The notes beneath the pieces are model-generated. The model did not search any database. It had not been told where the DNA came from and saw nothing but the letters and a program-made list of their open reading frames with translations. A stretch of DNA of 20,083 bases, taken from positions 1 through 20,083 of IMG/VR virus record IMGVR_UViG_3300005288_000120; one strand, written 5' to 3'. A program made the translations under genes and the position numbers. Origin of the DNA: a virus. How positions within the stretch are numbered: position 1 is the stretch's first letter; each line of letters begins with the position of its first letter. Positions 5,636 through 17,570 of this stretch are shown here, in pieces.

Positions 5636-6403
5636 TTATGCTGTAGGAGTACCTGAAGTACCGCTGCCAGTCGTGACGCCGATATGTTTGTGTGTAGAAA
5701 ATGGTATTCCGTTGAAAGTTGCGATACCTGTGATTGTATAATTACCAATCTGTACAAGATTACCTTGAAGATTAATATTTCCTAGCCAATCGGTGGTGCC
5801 AACATCCACAGTCATGGTTTGTGAGGTCAGCTGAATACTTTCATTAGCATTCACAATGGCGTTAGAACAGTTGATAGTTACGTTTTGATTAGATGTATTA
5901 ATCTCAATACTACCATCAGCTTTCAATCTAACTTCACACTCTGCACTACCCAAATTAGCGAACATTACGACATCATTGATAGCATGTGTAAGAACATGCT
6001 TGCCGGGGTTGTTCACGGCTGAACTAGAAGGTTGAATACCCGGAAGAAAGATTGCATCTCCCTTATCCATTTTAGCGAAGTTCGTAGGACTTACAGGACG
6101 ACCGTTACCGCCCTTCCAACTGTCCATACTTCTCATGGAGAAAATAGCTAAACCTGTATCCCCAGATTTAATTGGGAAAGTCATACCACCTGTACTGGAG
6201 ACAGGGAAGCTTACTGGTACGCCTAAGATAACAGGCCGCTCTTTGACTGTACCATCTTTAAACTTTTGGTTGATAGTAGGCTGAATATCAACCATCTGAC
6301 CATCTCTTACACTAACAACAATACAAGGGATGGCTGTATATAAATTCTGCATTTGAGAGTTGAATGCAGATATAAGTACGTCTTGAATTACATCTGCGGT
6401 CAT
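5636..6403 (-). CDS. Central spike protein, gp138-like
   Basis: A 255-residue membrane-piercing spike with the gp138 N-terminal OB-fold domain. Characteristic features are AIPCIVVSVRDGQMVDIQPTIN, then VPVSFPVSSTGGMTFPIKSGDTGLAIFSMRSMDSWKGG. The C-terminal part is a beta-helix with repeats of the type INTSNQNVTINCSNAIVNA. It ends with THKHIGVTTGSG, in which H238-x-H240 matches the HxH metal-binding tip motif of P2 gpV / gp138 spikes. The ATG at 6403 overlaps the hub stop. It follows hub and precedes wedge genes, as in other simple contractile tails. Confidence 0.9.
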   Translation of the reverse strand: MTADVIQDVLISAFNSQMQNLYTAIPCIVVSVRDGQMVDIQPTINQKFKDGTVKERPVILGVPVSFPVSSTGGMTFPIKSGDTGLAIFSMRSMDSWKGGNGRPVSPTNFAKMDKGDAIFLPGIQPSSSAVNNPGKHVLTHAINDVVMFANLGSAECEVRLKADGSIEINTSNQNVTINCSNAIVNANESIQLTSQTMTVDVGTTDWLGNINLQGNLVQIGNYTITGIATFNGIPFSTHKHIGVTTGSGTSGTPTA

Positions 6404-7287
6404 GTCACACTCACTTTCTTAATTACTTCTGCACGGATTTCTGTAGTCCAGTCATTTGAACGCCATCCACCCGAGTGTCGAATGTCTGTTACTTTATACC
6501 AACCATTGAACAGTGTATCTTCAATCTTAATAATGTCGCCAGCACGAATATCTGAGTTCAACAGAATCTTCATCTGGACACCGGGCTTCTTTGCCTTATC
6601 TTTCTTAGAACGTTTTCTGTCCCCGGATACTCGGTAAGGAAGTTCAATCAGGCCTGAGTATTTAGATATAATATAGGCCTGATTGAAGTTTTCAGAATTT
6701 CCCCTATCATTATCATGAACGTACAAAACCCCCTCCTCAAGCTGCCAATCTAAATTATACTTCTCAGATAACTCATCTAACATCTCTTTAGGTGTACCGC
6801 TCATTGGATATCCGTAGATAATCTGATTGCTCAGGTTAACTCCATTATAGACTCCACGATTGGCACCGATGGCTTTCCGTAGAAACTCCACAGCAGCTTT
6901 TACATCTTGTCCGGGAGGGACTAAGGCAGACAAGACTTCATGGTTTAGCTCAACATACCCAGAACCCATTGTGATGTGAGTAACCCTATCTGTTCCAGAC
7001 TTACGCGTAGAGACATTATTAACCTGTCCAGAGAAAAGTCTTTTAACACCGCCTGTGTCTAAATAACCGGCACTAAAGACTGCTGCTGGGTAAGCAACAT
7101 CAAACAGTGCAATGTGATCTTCCGATAGATTGGTAATCTCAATGGAAGCTGAATTAGTACGTTTTTTATTATCTGTACTTTTGCTGATATCAAAGGTTAC
7201 TTGTAAGTCATGTATCTCTAAGGCATTACCTGTGACCGTATCCCCAACGATCAGAGAGTACACCCTGTTCTTTTGGAAAGGGTCCAT
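6400..7287 (-). CDS. Baseplate hub protein
   Basis: A 295-residue protein with the features of phage baseplate hub proteins (gp44/gp27-like), which form the trimeric hub that holds the spike. The N-terminal stretch FDISKSTDNKKRTNSASIEITNLSEDHIALF matches the usual start of these proteins, with K-S-x-x-x-x-x-N-x-x-x-I-x-I-x-NLS. VTHITMGSGYVELNHEV follows. A lysine-rich linker DRKRSKKDKAKKPGVQMKIL precedes the closing domain, where VTDIRHSGGWRSNDWTTEIRAEVI is a common ending. The ATG at 7287 follows AGGATTAACT. The stop overlaps the spike gene start (ATGA). Confidence 0.82.
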   Translation of the reverse strand: MDPFQKNRVYSLIVGDTVTGNALEIHDLQVTFDISKSTDNKKRTNSASIEITNLSEDHIALFDVAYPAAVFSAGYLDTGGVKRLFSGQVNNVSTRKSGTDRVTHITMGSGYVELNHEVLSALVPPGQDVKAAVEFLRKAIGANRGVYNGVNLSNQIIYGYPMSGTPKEMLDELSEKYNLDWQLEEGVLYVHDNDRGNSENFNQAYIISKYSGLIELPYRVSGDRKRSKKDKAKKPGVQMKILLNSDIRAGDIIKIEDTLFNGWYKVTDIRHSGGWRSNDWTTEIRAEVIKKVSVT

Positions 7288-11934: not shown

Positions 11935-12465
11935 TTAAGGATTCAAACGCCATCTTTCATCCACTGTGCCGCCCGCTGCTTCAACAGCTGCAACTTCGGC
12001 AGGTGCCAACGGCATGTTACCACCAACAAACAAGTCACTGCCAAACAGGTAGATTTGCCAATCACGTGTGGAAGTATCAGAGCTAAATGCTACAGTAGGA
12101 GGGGCCGCGATGATTGCACTGTTGGAGGATGCGACAGTTTGCCCACTCAAATCTCTGATTGTGACTGAGAAAACCCATGTATTGTCGCTAGTTTGGGCGT
12201 CGGCAATTTGAAGCTGTTGTAGGACGGTATTAGATGGAGAGTATTGATGCAAAGTAACATCAACAGTCATACCAGTTACTTTACGTTTCACCCTCGCGAA
12301 TGATGATCCCCCAACTCCTTGATAAGGTGTGGAAGTTGGAACGAGTCTATTAAGTGATGCAAATGTTCCGTCAGCGAAGCCAGTAACAGTATGAACAAAG
12401 TCACCTTTTGAAATTACGATAGTAAAATCATCCGGGCAATAGTTTCCGATATACGAAGTAGCCAT
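11935..12465 (-). CDS. Tail tube-fold structural protein, paralogue 1
   Basis: A 176-residue protein of the DUF3277-like, tail-tube-type group. It begins with NYCPDDFTIVIS, then GFADGTFASL. The middle has VTLHQYSPSNTVLQQL and TIRDLSGQTVASSNSAIIAAPPTVAF. The end has TSTRDWQIYLFGSDLFVGGN. The same series of motifs recurs in the next two genes. It directly followed the sheath before endonuclease insertion, the usual place of the major tube protein, so it is the best candidate for the main tube subunit. The start ATG at 12465 follows TAGGAAATAAA. It has no amphipathic C-terminal tail, unlike the other two. Confidence 0.72.
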   Translation of the reverse strand: MATSYIGNYCPDDFTIVISKGDFVHTVTGFADGTFASLNRLVPTSTPYQGVGGSSFARVKRKVTGMTVDVTLHQYSPSNTVLQQLQIADAQTSDNTWVFSVTIRDLSGQTVASSNSAIIAAPPTVAFSSDTSTRDWQIYLFGSDLFVGGNMPLAPAEVAAVEAAGGTVDERWRLNP

Positions 12466-12473
12466 TTTATTTC

Positions 12474-13277
12474 CTATGCATATTGAAAATCTGGATGATT
12501 TTCTTTTATTCTTGAATTGATAATATATTTGGAGTAGCCAGTAGCTTCAGTTGCCTGCTTTATGCTATCAAATTTAATATCATTGATAATTACAGAAATG
12601 GATGATGGATGATCTTTTGGATCAATACCGAACATGTGGTTCTGCTCAGAAGATTGTTCTCTGTAAGATCTTTTAGCTTCAACATAGCCCTTCTGCACTC
12701 TGTTATTCACAGTTGCATATGGTATACCTAGATTAAGTGCTGCTAAGCTTCTGTTTGTAAACCAAAAACCACTTACATAAACGGGATTAACTGCTTCGGT
12801 ACGGTCGTAGACTATATCTTTCCTTCCACGAACAATGTCTCCAAGAGTTCCTTCTCGTTGCCTGTTCTTGTAAATATGCGTAGTAATATTTAAAGCTCTA
12901 ATTGCAACTCTTCGAACAGGGAACCACCAACCACTCACGAATACTGGAGTATCCCGTTTACTGGATGCTATCGTGTAACCACACCCTGATTCACCACCGG
13001 GTTTTATATTATATCCAAGATTACGGGTACGAGTCTTATATAAATTAATAGCTCTAACTTCTAAATCAAGGATATAGTCTTTTTCACCAACACAAATAAT
13101 TTCAAATTCAAAATTTTCTCTTCCGTGTTTATCCATAGCAGTGCGAATAACTGTCTGGTTGGTTTGTTTCGACTTGGAAAAGTGTTTGGATTTTCTCCTC
13201 TTTACGTCAGAGGTAATTCCAATGTAGAGTTTATTATTTACTTTATTGGTAATTTTGTATAAGTAATAAGGTTTCAT
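12474..13277 (-). CDS. GIY-YIG homing endonuclease (downstream of sheath)
   Basis: A 267-residue GIY-YIG endonuclease. The nuclease domain is residues 1-96: YLY (5-7), LYIG (17-20), R27/R28, catalytic Glu in DLEVRAI (E73) and GYNIKPGGE (N90). Three tandem NUMOD/IENR-like repeats follow, at about 113-148 (VSGWWFPVRRVAIRALNI), 168-200 (VSGFWFTNRSLAALNLGI) and 229-265 (INDIKFDSIKQATEATGY). The start ATG at 13277 follows AGGAGG with a short 4-base spacer, and this SD lies in a hairpin with a promoter-like sequence in front. Its stop TAG runs into the GGAAA of the next gene's SD. It is related throughout to the gene at 14635-15390, including the sequence GTLGDI, but clearly diverged. Confidence 0.93.
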   Translation of the reverse strand: MKPYYLYKITNKVNNKLYIGITSDVKRRKSKHFSKSKQTNQTVIRTAMDKHGRENFEFEIICVGEKDYILDLEVRAINLYKTRTRNLGYNIKPGGESGCGYTIASSKRDTPVFVSGWWFPVRRVAIRALNITTHIYKNRQREGTLGDIVRGRKDIVYDRTEAVNPVYVSGFWFTNRSLAALNLGIPYATVNNRVQKGYVEAKRSYREQSSEQNHMFGIDPKDHPSSISVIINDIKFDSIKQATEATGYSKYIINSRIKENHPDFQYA

Positions 13278-13326
13278 AGAGCCTCCTAGATAAAATCATT
13301 GTAGATCATAACACCTAAAAGGCTCT
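13278..13326 (-). promoter_or_regulatory. Hairpin masking the RBS of the second GIY-YIG gene
   Basis: AGAGCCU (13326-13320) pairs perfectly with AGGCUCU (13284-13278), and an inner UAG/CUA can extend the stem across a UU/GG internal loop. The 3' arm covers the last part of the strong SD AGGAGG and reaches the base before the ATG. In read-through transcripts from the sheath gene the SD would be hidden. In transcripts starting near 13299 it would be free. Confidence 0.6.
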
Positions 13327-13333
13327 GTGTAAA
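13305..13333 (-). promoter_or_regulatory. Putative sigma70-like promoter for the second GIY-YIG gene
   Basis: TTTACA (13333-13328), a 17-base spacer, then TATGAT (13310-13305) on the minus strand: each hexamer is one base from the bacterial consensus and the spacing is ideal. Transcription would start near 13299, about 22 bases before the ATG at 13277. It lies just past the sheath stop codon. The start point falls in the loop of the hairpin at 13278-13326, so the transcript would lack the masking arm. Confidence 0.5.
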
Positions 13334-13336
13334 ACC

Positions 13337-14623
13337 CTAGACCGAGAGATAAAACTGGATGGAAACGCTGCGAATGGCGCCTTGCAAGCGAGCTTGAATA
13401 ACAAATACACCAGCAGCACGTTGGGCACGGAGGGTAGCCGGAATCGACAATACTGGTGGTGTCGAAACTTTCCACCCGCTATCAATCATGCCGTTACTTT
13501 CAGCCAAGGAAAGTACGGAACGAATCTCATTTTCAACAATTAAAAGTCCCGGATCGGTCATCGGAATTTTCAAACTGTTGATGATGCGGAAGTAAATACC
13601 TTCCTGAAGTCGTGCTTTCAACCAGTCTTTCGAAATTTGGATGTCGATTGGCTTCGAATCAAACATGTTACCGTCTTGGAAGACATCAACACCACCTTTA
13701 CGGCGGAAGAAGTTCCACGATTTGGCACGCAAGTTAACAATCTGTGTCGGGCTAAGGATACTACGAGTAACGCCTACAGCACGCTTAAAGTCCCAGTCAT
13801 TGGAGCCAGGAGTAACAGCCAGCTGACTACCGGACCAAGCTGCTTCAGGGAATTCAGTTGCAGCAGTTGCAGACCACACACCAAATGTACGACCAGCAGA
13901 CTTAGCATTAAGTTTGTAGCCAATATCTGTAATACCATTAGTAGGTGCAACAACGTCAGCAGAAGACAGACCATAGATCTTATCCATTGCTTGAATGGTA
14001 TCGGACAGAGCTTCTTGTTCAGCGACTACTTGAGTTTCAGCAGTCAGCTCATACCAGATATCATTATCTGCATCGACTGCCAGAAGTGCAGCAGGCCAAG
14101 TTTCAGTGGCAGTGTTTACACCAACAAGGTTGGTTGAAGTAATGACACTCCAAGCAGTACCAAGGACAGTGGTGGTCAGGATCAGGGTGGTTGTGCCGGT
14201 GACAGTGATGCCAGCGGGGGAACCAATAGCTGCTTTCAAACCAGTTACGATAGTGGTTGCAGTAGCACCTACACCAGAGGTAAAGGTGTAAAGTACGTCG
14301 TTAAGAGTAACGGTATAAGCTGTGCTATCAGCAACAGTTGGTGTAAAGACTACACTATCAACTTGACGACGACCAACAACCAGAGACGGGATTGGTGCAC
14401 CAATTACAGAGTCTTGACCGAAGGCTTTACTAGCCATCTTGTAGACATTACTGGTGGTTGCAAAGTCTGCACCAACTTCTGTAATACTCAGGTAGGTACG
14501 AGCACGTTCAGAAAAGTTAGTGAACGTAGCAAGGATAAGGGGAATTGCGAAGCTAGCCGTAGCAATAGCAGTGGTCTGATCGGTAATAACAACTTGTACT
14601 ACATCATCAAGGTCATTGGACAT
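13337..14623 (-). CDS. Tail sheath protein, DUF3383-type
   Basis: A 428-residue contractile tail sheath protein of the DUF3383 type. The sheath surrounds the tube and contracts to drive it through the cell envelope. Family-like features are the start (DDVVQVVITDQTTAIATASF), the segment PLILATFTNFSERARTYLSI, and VYKMASKAFGQDSVIGAP. The C-terminal region has the expected DIQISKDWLKARLQEGIYFRIINSLKIP and the closing beta part. Residues about 90-165 form an inserted-looking module that also occurs in the baseplate J protein. AAGGAG precedes the ATG at 14623. The gene is bracketed by two paralogous GIY-YIG genes. A sheath gene next to tube paralogues and a tape measure supports a myovirus-type tail. 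Confidence 0.87.
   Translation of the reverse strand: MSNDLDDVVQVVITDQTTAIATASFAIPLILATFTNFSERARTYLSITEVGADFATTSNVYKMASKAFGQDSVIGAPIPSLVVGRRQVDSVVFTPTVADSTAYTVTLNDVLYTFTSGVGATATTIVTGLKAAIGSPAGITVTGTTTLILTTTVLGTAWSVITSTNLVGVNTATETWPAALLAVDADNDIWYELTAETQVVAEQEALSDTIQAMDKIYGLSSADVVAPTNGITDIGYKLNAKSAGRTFGVWSATAATEFPEAAWSGSQLAVTPGSNDWDFKRAVGVTRSILSPTQIVNLRAKSWNFFRRKGGVDVFQDGNMFDSKPIDIQISKDWLKARLQEGIYFRIINSLKIPMTDPGLLIVENEIRSVLSLAESNGMIDSGWKVSTPPVLSIPATLRAQRAAGVFVIQARLQGAIRSVSIQFYLSV
14131..14356 (-). repeat. Structural module shared with baseplate J protein (sheath copy)
   Basis: Sheath residues about 90-165 align with residues about 150-228 of the J-like protein: STAYTVTLND with STAYTITYAN, TFTSGVGATATTIVTGLKAAI with TFTSDASATVAEILAGLQSVI, and a later TSTNLVGVN with TTSVNLGIN. 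A run of 17 identical bases coding for STAYT lies at 14312-14328 here and 4759-4775 there. Such small beta modules recur in phage structural proteins. Confidence 0.6.
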
Positions 14624-14634
14624 GGAAGAACTCC

Positions 14635-15390
14635 TTAGTTAGTGGTGTATTCATATGAATAGCCTTCTTTATTTTGGTAAAAATACTGTCTTAGAGTATT
14701 ATATGGAACACTCGTGACTAAGGATGCTGCCCTTAAATCATCATATGTAGTACCATTAATTACTGGTTTTCTTTTAGGTGGTATATTACGGAACTTTGAG
14801 TTTTCTTCAAACTTACCTAAAAGAATGTACTTTCTGATTGTCTCTTTAGGTTTATTAAAAACCTCTGAAGCTTTTGTGATGCTATAAAACCAAAAACCTT
14901 TAAAATATACTGGACTGTCCATCACTGGTGATGGCTTTGGTCTACATATATCCCCAAGAGTCCCAGCTTTCTTCCAAATATAAAACACGTTTGTGTTAGT
15001 TATATCAAGAGCTTCGCAGGCAGTTCGTTTATTAGGGAACCAAAAACCAGAGACAAAACAATCATAATCATCTGATCTTTCCTTGACTTTCCCTACACTT
15101 GCCCCCTCACCACCTTTTGATATATTGTATCCACTTTCAATGGAGTCATATAATTTAATGGCTTTCACTTCAAGGTCGAAGATATAGTCTCTATTACCGA
15201 TGCAGAGAACTTCAAAACTAAAACTATCAGGTCCGTACTTGAGAGCAGCACTTTTAATTAAAGAGATTCGCCCTTTCTTTGGTTTTTCATATAGGTGCTG
15301 TCTTTTTCTTTTTTCAGGAAAAGCGGTTACACCAATATAGAGTTTACCATTTACAAGGTTTGTGATTTTATATAGGTAATAACTCACCAC
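14635..15390 (-). CDS. GIY-YIG homing endonuclease (upstream of sheath)
   Basis: A 251-residue GIY-YIG endonuclease. The nuclease domain is residues 1-95: YLY (5-7), LYIG (17-20), basic patch with R28/R30, catalytic Glu in DLEVKAI (E74) and GYNISKGGEG (N89), all as expected. Three tandem NUMOD/IENR-like DNA-binding repeats follow, at about 112-147 (VSGFWFPNKRTACEALDI), 162-194 (FKGFWFYSITKASEVF) and 209-245 (INGTTYDDLRAASLVT). GTG at 15390 or the second GTG at 15387 is the start; the second has the better spacing from GAGG. The RBS lies in a predicted hairpin. The stop TAA forms part of the TAAGGAG SD of the sheath gene. It is a diverged paralogue of the gene at 12474-13277. Confidence 0.93.
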   Translation of the reverse strand: MVSYYLYKITNLVNGKLYIGVTAFPEKRKRQHLYEKPKKGRISLIKSAALKYGPDSFSFEVLCIGNRDYIFDLEVKAIKLYDSIESGYNISKGGEGASVGKVKERSDDYDCFVSGFWFPNKRTACEALDITNTNVFYIWKKAGTLGDICRPKPSPVMDSPVYFKGFWFYSITKASEVFNKPKETIRKYILLGKFEENSKFRNIPPKRKPVINGTTYDDLRAASLVTSVPYNTLRQYFYQNKEGYSYEYTTN

Positions 15391-16431: not shown

Positions 16432-16455
16432 TTAGTTTGGGGTGAGTTCTATGCG
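16432..16455 (-). repeat. Probable displaced original 3' end of head closure gene (copy 2)
   Basis: CGC ATA GAA CTC ACC CCA, then AAC and TAA, encode RIELTPN-stop at the end of the HNH gene. This is the counterpart of 17199-17222 with every codon changed. Directly after it comes AGGATAGCAAAATG, the SD and start of the tail completion gene, as would be expected if this was once the end of the head-closure gene itself. Confidence 0.7.
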
Positions 16456-17202
16456 GGCAGAATAACTATCTTCCATTACATTCGAATACCCTTGGAGAAG
16501 GATTGTCATGTAGGGGTCTACGGTGGAGTTCCCATCTTTGTGGATGTTCTTATGGCAAGCTACGCAAAGAGTCACTAGATTGGTAGGAGTAAACCTTAGC
16601 TCTGGGCTTCTGATCCAAGTGTCTAAGTGGTGCACATTAAGTTCACCAGATTTCTGAGAGCACCAAGCACAAGTAAACAAATCGCGTTTCAATATTTCAG
16701 CGGATAGTGGTTTAAACTCAAGACGTTCTAGGTTATATTCTGTTGACATTGGAATATCTTCAGGCAGTCCACGCTCATGTCTTTTTGCTTTGTGCATATT
16801 CAGCATATTTTCACCAGCCTTATCTTTCTGCCAGCAACCACAACTTTTAATATCTCCATTTCGTAAGGACGTTATTCCTGCAAGAGTTTCGGAACCGCAA
16901 TCACAAAGACACTTCCAGAATTGAGAATCTTGTTCTCTACTTATTACTGTAAGCCTTGTGAATTTCTGACCAGCAATATCTTGACGCCTTGATCTATTAC
17001 TCTCTATACGCTGACAGCCGCAAGATTGTGTATTTTTCAAGCTAGCTTGTCGGATCACTGCTTTATTTCCACAATCGCATAAACAATTGAAGAAAATAAC
17101 CCTTTGAATAGTCCTATTGTCTTGTGTGTATTGTTCAACTCTATTAAAAGATTCTACATAAAGCTTAAAGTTCTTTGTCCCAACTGCTTTATAGGTCTTC
17201 AA
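16432..17202 (-). CDS. HNH homing endonuclease with two zinc ribbons
   Basis: A 256-residue free-standing HNH endonuclease. Such enzymes cut a specific phage sequence lacking the gene, so that repair copies the gene in. Two zinc-ribbon units precede the nuclease: C40, C42, C44 with C61, C63 (CLCDCG...SCGC), and C98, C100, C102 with C121, C123. The HNH domain spans about residues 165-222: C178-x2-C181, H191-H192, N208, C213-x2-C216 and H217/H221. All key residues are present. The start is TTG at 17202, overlapping the stop of the head-closure gene, with no strong SD, so it is probably translated at low level or by coupling. The C-terminal RIELTPN duplicates the end of the upstream gene, and the stop TAA runs straight into the AGGA of the next gene's SD. 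Confidence 0.92.
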   Translation of the reverse strand: MKTYKAVGTKNFKLYVESFNRVEQYTQDNRTIQRVIFFNCLCDCGNKAVIRQASLKNTQSCGCQRIESNRSRRQDIAGQKFTRLTVISREQDSQFWKCLCDCGSETLAGITSLRNGDIKSCGCWQKDKAGENMLNMHKAKRHERGLPEDIPMSTEYNLERLEFKPLSAEILKRDLFTCAWCSQKSGELNVHHLDTWIRSPELRFTPTNLVTLCVACHKNIHKDGNSTVDPYMTILLQGYSNVMEDSYSARIELTPN

Positions 17203-17222
17203 TTAGGTGTCAACTCTACTCT
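17199..17222 (-). repeat. Recoded 3' end of the head closure gene (copy 1)
   Basis: Eight codons, AGA GTA GAG TTG ACA CCT, then AAT and TGA, encode RVELTPN-stop. They match the 3' end of the downstream HNH gene at protein level (RIELTPN-stop at 16432-16455), yet each of the eight codons differs between the copies (10 of 24 bases). The pairing is seen directly. The idea that this is a replacement end brought in by the mobile gene is inference. Confidence 0.7.
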
Positions 17223-17570
17223 TGTAGCTTTAATTTCCCAGTGATCGCGAATTGACATAGAGTACTTTTGGCTCTTCATAGCTTCATAAAGATCCCCGTC
17301 CCAATAGAATCTATCTGCGCCATGTGGATCAGCAGATCCTTCTTTCTTGACCCTAACTTCACTAGATGTAAACATCCACAACCAAGACTTAGAACGGTCG
17401 GACTCGGGCATAATACTCACTTGATAGTCTGTGAAGGGGTGGACGTTAGCCATAATATCAACTGTAGTCTCAACCCCTTCTACCCATTCACCATCTATAT
17501 ATGAACCTGCCGTATGCCGTAGAAGGGTTACAGGAACTTTTCTAACCAAACTAAATTCTGCAATTGACAT
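17199..17570 (-). CDS. Head closure / head-tail joining protein
   Basis: A 123-residue protein with the beta-rich character and place of head-closure proteins (Hc1, SPP1 gp16-like), which plug the portal and join the tail. Visible features are the opening VRKVPVTLLRHTAGSYIDGEWVEG, a middle stretch ending SWLWMFTSSEVRV, and a late motif DRFYWDGDLYEAMKSQ. This last is the D-x-x-x-W/Y-x-G-x-x-Y pattern common in such proteins. AAGGAGG precedes the ATG at 17570. The last seven residues, RVELTPN, are nearly repeated at the end of the HNH gene that follows, and the stop TGA overlaps that gene's TTG start (TTGA). This suggests the present 3' end was supplied by the mobile gene. Confidence 0.68.
   Translation of the reverse strand: MSIAEFSLVRKVPVTLLRHTAGSYIDGEWVEGVETTVDIMANVHPFTDYQVSIMPESDRSKSWLWMFTSSEVRVKKEGSADPHGADRFYWDGDLYEAMKSQKYSMSIRDHWEIKATRVELTPN

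Follow-up and report, generated by a model that had tools for sequence, protein, structure and literature searches.

A promoter-like element nested in a predicted ribosome-binding-site hairpin precedes homing endonuclease genes between the tail sheath and tube genes of myophages

Introduction

In phage T4, homing endonuclease genes are controlled through the structure of their own leaders. For I-TevI, and also for I-TevII and I-TevIII, a hairpin covers the ribosome-binding site (RBS) on RNA initiated upstream, and the gene's own promoter yields an RNA that lacks the 5' arm of that hairpin; I-TevI stays off early, and a late promoter then switches it on (PMC2988022). The genes of this group lie in introns of early or middle genes and have middle or late promoters, and accounts of the T4 case have rested on intron splicing and on late timing. 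Similar promoter arrangements are described in a review for T4 segB and Aeh1 mobE (PMC2988022), both of them free-standing, of the GIY-YIG or HNH type, and with a hairpin at the RBS, and in T4 e and soc the RBS or the start codon is held in a helix on the long RNA (PMC3014915, PMC2988022).

The locus analyzed here shares with the I-TevI group both an RBS hairpin, predicted here, on upstream-initiated RNA and a promoter within it, but the gene is free-standing, lies in a structural operon and has a sigma70-like promoter, and the predicted timing is reversed because that promoter sits in what is, by analogy, a late operon. It differs from segB and mobE in phage group, target site and promoter class, and unlike them it belongs to a layout that recurs over many leaders and several endonuclease families at one site; e and soc are the phage's own genes and are on late, whereas here the gene is mobile and predicted to be early. 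The principle is known from T4-type phages; what is new is the promoter class, the operon context and the breadth across endonuclease families. We propose that the 59-nt leader is very probably an I-TevI/segB-type switch between two modes of expression, from which early endonuclease synthesis and later silence would be expected.

Results and Discussion

The window (the whole stretch of viral DNA that was analyzed, 20,083 nt) comes from a relative of the Pakpunavirus and Nankokuvirus myophages. Three genes define the locus:

11935..12465, minus strand: tube-type virion gene, downstream of the endonuclease
12474..13277, minus strand: free-standing GIY-YIG homing endonuclease gene, 267 aa (Pfam GIY-YIG 1e-11; PHROG homing endonuclease 1.5e-32)
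13337..14623, minus strand: tail sheath gene, upstream of the endonuclease (PHROG tail sheath 7.8e-92; Pfam DUF3383)

The Pfam match gives the product the GIY-YIG domain expected of a homing endonuclease. The sheath stop codon is at 13339-13337 (minus), the leader between it and the endonuclease is 59 nt long, and the minus-strand sequence 3' of the stop is GGTTTTACACAGAGCCTTTTAGGTGTTATGATCTACAATGATTTTATCTAGGAGGCTCTATG. The nearest named sheath, at 49%, is that of Pseudomonas phage vB_PsaM_M1, which has no insert at this place; when phage records were searched at the DNA level with this 3.5-kb region, only one sheath match came back.

The leader is predicted to fold over the Shine-Dalgarno (SD) sequence of the endonuclease gene through the following elements:

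13282..13287, minus strand: Shine-Dalgarno AGGAGG, 4 nt before the ATG at 13277-13275 (sequence)
13312..13326, minus strand: 5' arm of the RBS-occluding stem (fold z -6.2; covariation)
13278..13292, minus strand: 3' arm of the stem, holding the SD and the spacer (fold; covariation)
13330..13339, minus strand: 5' half of an outer stem, from the sheath stop codon (fold)
13267..13276, minus strand: 3' half of the outer stem, endonuclease codons 1-4 (fold)

The SD (13287-13282), the ATG (13277) and the perfect 7-bp repeat of the initial annotation, AGAGCCT/AGGCTCT (13326-13320 with 13284-13278), are all present on the minus strand; the annotation's statement that the repeat covers the SD is correct only for the last half of the SD, and it is a longer stem that takes in the whole of it. 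By itself the 7-bp repeat is weak evidence, since one touching the stretch from SD to start arises in about 5% of shuffles, and it forms the base of a 15-bp stem (counting G-U pairs; 13326-13312 with 13292-13278) that is itself enclosed by a further 10-bp stem joining the sheath stop region to codons 1-4 (13339-13330 with 13276-13267). The 86-nt region has a minimum free energy of -32 kcal/mol against -15.8 +/- 2.6 for shuffled sequences (z -6.2; 0 of 200 as good), and the predicted cost of opening the SD-to-start stretch falls from 21.2 kcal/mol in the read-through RNA to 3.6 in the short RNA.

With its perfect base, the stem could also be read as an intrinsic terminator or as one end of an element resembling a transposon, a reading to which we give next to no weight: it is followed by ATGAAACC and by no U-run, it is absent from the list of the terminator scan, and the leaders of different relatives have their layout in common and not their sequence. 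The position of the outer stem, which starts at the sheath stop codon, raises another possibility, namely that ribosomes terminating on the sheath gene melt the structure, so that translation of the endonuclease would depend on that of the sheath and come late. With the 10 nt that follow the stop taken away, however, the predicted opening cost is still 17.2 kcal/mol in the window's leader, so in this model the outer stem is not needed for SD occlusion; the corresponding values are 8-19 kcal/mol across all leaders of the survey below, whose arms in several cases lie 20-40 nt past the end of the sheath gene. Opening of the lock by a terminating ribosome is unlikely in these models because the inner hairpin persists, and coupling to sheath synthesis is, in our estimate, very improbable.

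Within the same DNA as the hairpin lies a candidate promoter:

13328..13333, minus strand: -35 element TTTACA (promoter scan; kept in relatives)
13305..13313, minus strand: extended -10 element TGtTATGAT (promoter scan; TGnTA... in 23/30 leaders)
13298, minus strand: predicted transcription start between the arms, 7 nt after the -10 element

The proposed TTTACA-17-TATGAT promoter (13333-13305, minus) is thus where it had been placed, with an extended -10 TG in addition, and the predicted start differs by one nucleotide from the earlier position in the loop, 13299; an RNA begun at 13298 would lack the 5' arm. It is the best site and the sole 10-of-12 sigma70-like match in the 8.5 kb scanned, where promoter-like sites overall are at chance level (20 versus 20.5), so conservation had to decide on the promoter. 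The best match of the window's leader to the T4-type late promoter TATAAATA has 3 mismatches, which rules out a T4 late promoter there. The likeness to I-TevI drawn in the initial annotation stands for the predicted hairpin with its internal promoter, but the timing would be the opposite: in T4 a late promoter lets the gene escape the silencing of early RNA, whereas here a sigma70-like one lies in an operon that is late by analogy.

Five close GIY-YIG relatives (53-70% protein identity; two have identical leaders) keep the -10 element as TATGAT or TAGAAT and the -35 element as CTTTACA or CTTTACG, the latter element being kept also in an HNH leader (L069), and they retain the stem through compensating paired changes. 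Among nine leaders, 96.3% of stem cells are paired, and the covariation score is 0.398 against 0.242 +/- 0.026 for shuffles (0 of 500) and at most 0.17 for slid controls. The arms do co-vary, then, the point that the initial annotation had left to a homologue search; the covariation is real but rests on few positions, with only 3 pairs changed on both sides, a number that 246 of 500 shuffles also reach. Together, the predicted fold and the covariation point to sequestration of the RBS on read-through RNA.

To place the window's leader among others of its kind, an IMG/VR scan for the sheath yielded 74 loci, and 30 leaders at the sheath-tube site were defined, 20 ahead of GIY-YIG and 10 ahead of HNH-type genes. 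Each received one score for a sigma70-like promoter and another for the free energy that opening of the SD-to-start stretch would take in the read-through and the short RNA, and 416 other gene starts on the same contigs served as controls. At a promoter score of at least 9, 28 of the 30 leaders qualify against 24 of 416 controls, the search span being slightly different for the two groups; an opening cost of at least 12 is found in 27 of 30 against 33 of 416, and the two features together in 25 of 30 against 5 of 416, with cut-offs that were set after inspection of the data and on which the rank tests do not depend. The leaders that fall below the thresholds are L107, L127 and L082 for opening cost and L133 and L094 for promoter score. 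Three of the five control starts with both features are themselves endonuclease genes elsewhere, encoding a LAGLIDADG-type protein (L107), a PHROG endonuclease (L075) and a GIY-YIG protein (L130). The leaders are related by descent, and the 30 collapse to 11 sequence clusters; at this level, both features are present in 7 of 11 clusters against 5 of 409 controls (p 6e-10), and the opening cost drops by 9.7 kcal/mol when the RNA is begun at -22 (11 clusters), against 0.44 (409 controls; p 3e-8).

These counts bear on two further explanations. If the hairpin silenced the gene fully and the promoter-like site were accidental or dead, the mobile gene would simply be off and its phage spared, and the chance-level total of such sites in the region would fit; we judge this improbable, as the promoter-score excess is accompanied by an extended -10 TG in 23 of 30 leaders against 19% of control starts, and the -35 and -10 elements are retained in relatives with altered arms. 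Alternatively, only the promoter would matter to the gene. The hairpin would then be incidental, or would serve the sheath mRNA as an RNase III or stability element and not as a translational lock, protecting or processing the 3' end of that mRNA, since the paired stems jointly reach across the sheath stop. This we hold to be decidedly improbable: the best-folding model puts the SD inside a paired stretch in nearly every leader despite sequence differences, and cutting the RNA back to the promoter start exposes the SD to a much greater extent than it does in control genes.

The retention of promoter and hairpin in relatives, in a combination almost exclusive to endonuclease leaders, agrees with the initial annotation, which had also named relatives lacking both as the case against it. 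One such case exists among 31 sheath-tube leaders, the GIY-YIG gene of L132, which has a 22-nt leader with neither promoter nor occluding hairpin.

In a separate observation, the L107 LAGLIDADG-type gene (L107:676-1632), upstream of a GIY-YIG gene on the same contig, is preceded by TTGAAA-17-TAGAAT and a AAAACCTCCT/AGGAGGTTTT hairpin over its SD.

Occlusion of the SD in the long RNA, its loss in the promoter-started RNA and the conservation of both are computed results, and from this anatomy and conservation we infer that the endonuclease is poorly translated on read-through RNA. In the proposed switch, RNA reading through from the sheath gene would form the 15-bp hairpin and hide the SD, so that little endonuclease is made; the sigma70-like extended -10 promoter in the same DNA would start a short RNA between the arms, and this RNA, having no 5' arm, would leave the SD open and allow synthesis. 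Use of the promoter and synthesis from the short RNA are likewise inferred. The endonuclease would then be made early and silenced in late read-through RNA, a likely order, the reverse of that of I-TevI, which is expected because the promoter resembles the annotated sigma70-like promoters of relatives and because the structural operon is late in PAK_P3.

A related phage with one such leader is PAK_P4 (KC862300), which is culturable and has an RNA-seq-based annotation. Its GIY-YIG gene follows the sheath at the same site and has a leader of the same layout, TTGACA-16-TGGTATCAT with a strong hairpin, but the protein is only 31% identical to that of the window, the leader sequence is unrelated, and the 5' arm pairs across the start and codons 2-7. 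Among 120 plus-strand CDS of PAK_P4, this start is 3rd by opening cost and 2nd by promoter score, and the place that corresponds to the window's predicted transcription start lies around 9136 of KC862300. The KC862300 annotation marks no promoter at the endonuclease; several promoters that it does mark have the TTGACA...TGnTA make-up found in the endonuclease leader. In PAK_P3, structural genes are mostly late and some ORFs of that region are over-expressed early (PMC4933390), and two of these, gp34 and gp45, lie directly downstream of annotated TTGACA/TTGCCA-type promoters. The PAK_P3 sheath-tube site is empty, so these ORFs serve only as a precedent and were set aside as direct proof.

The leader is missing from insert-free phages and appears to be part of the mobile insertion. 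In phages without an insert the tube gene directly follows the sheath, with a gap of mostly 11-34 nt and few longer ones (41 nt in L134, 114 nt in L105), so that empty alleles are at hand in relatives; an intervening endonuclease usually has a leader of 58-84 nt. The HNH leader L069 and the GIY-YIG leader L083 are 83% identical and their sheath ends 67%, from which this leader type is seen to precede unrelated endonucleases, presumably via exchange or replacement of the reading frame. L007, PAK_P4 (L138) and the HNH types L081 and L089 have the same layout in unrelated leader sequences.

We put at about even the chances of a broader reading for Pakpunavirus/Nankokuvirus-like myophages, in which one layout, with an early-type promoter set inside an RBS hairpin, is common to unrelated endonucleases (GIY-YIG, HNH and probably LAGLIDADG) or was acquired by them more than once; it would invert the T4 programme and would in part move between families as a leader module. 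A free-standing gene in a late operon whose promoter looks early, and a layout that recurs before unrelated endonucleases at one site, suggest the general rule that mobile endonucleases must be uncoupled from the operon in which they sit. The set of leaders allows promoter and lock to be tested separately.

Several further features of these sites were observed. The 114-nt gap of L105 (L105:4788-4901) holds no ORF and contains pieces like the leader start and the 3' end of the L102-type HNH insert, probably a remnant of a lost endonuclease. GIY-YIG and HNH inserts have a common 3' tail, GGGAGCGATCCCATAATTAAAAGGTA or close variants, directly before the tube gene (L127, L102, L106, L089, L091, L096, L099 and L101), which suggests a common insertion border. 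A comparison of leader and empty junction for an I-TevI-like autorepressor operator detected no operator-like copy of the junction, the best match being 9 nt, equalled by 279 of 500 shuffles. Rfam group I introns occur at the sheath gene of relatives (L128:3903-4193, L130:4064-4354, L137:4474-4764 and L139:2685-2918), with a second in L128 at 6338-6562; the KIL4 GIY-YIG gene (L139) was left out, its ORF being broken and the intron at 2685-2918 separating the endonuclease from the end of the sheath CDS as annotated.

The window itself carries a second GIY-YIG endonuclease gene (14635-15390, minus), between the neck-terminator and sheath genes and with hardly any leader. In the predicted fold, early codons of this gene pair with its SD and GTG start, at an opening cost of 11.8 that is the same after truncation at -22, and L020 and L028 show the SD/HYLYK-codon pairing at apparently the same site. 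Further upstream, an HNH ORF (16432-17202, minus, ending ..RIELTPN*) and the ORF upstream of it (17199-17570, minus, ending ..RVELTPN*) have similar ends, possibly a gene tail duplicated at insertion.
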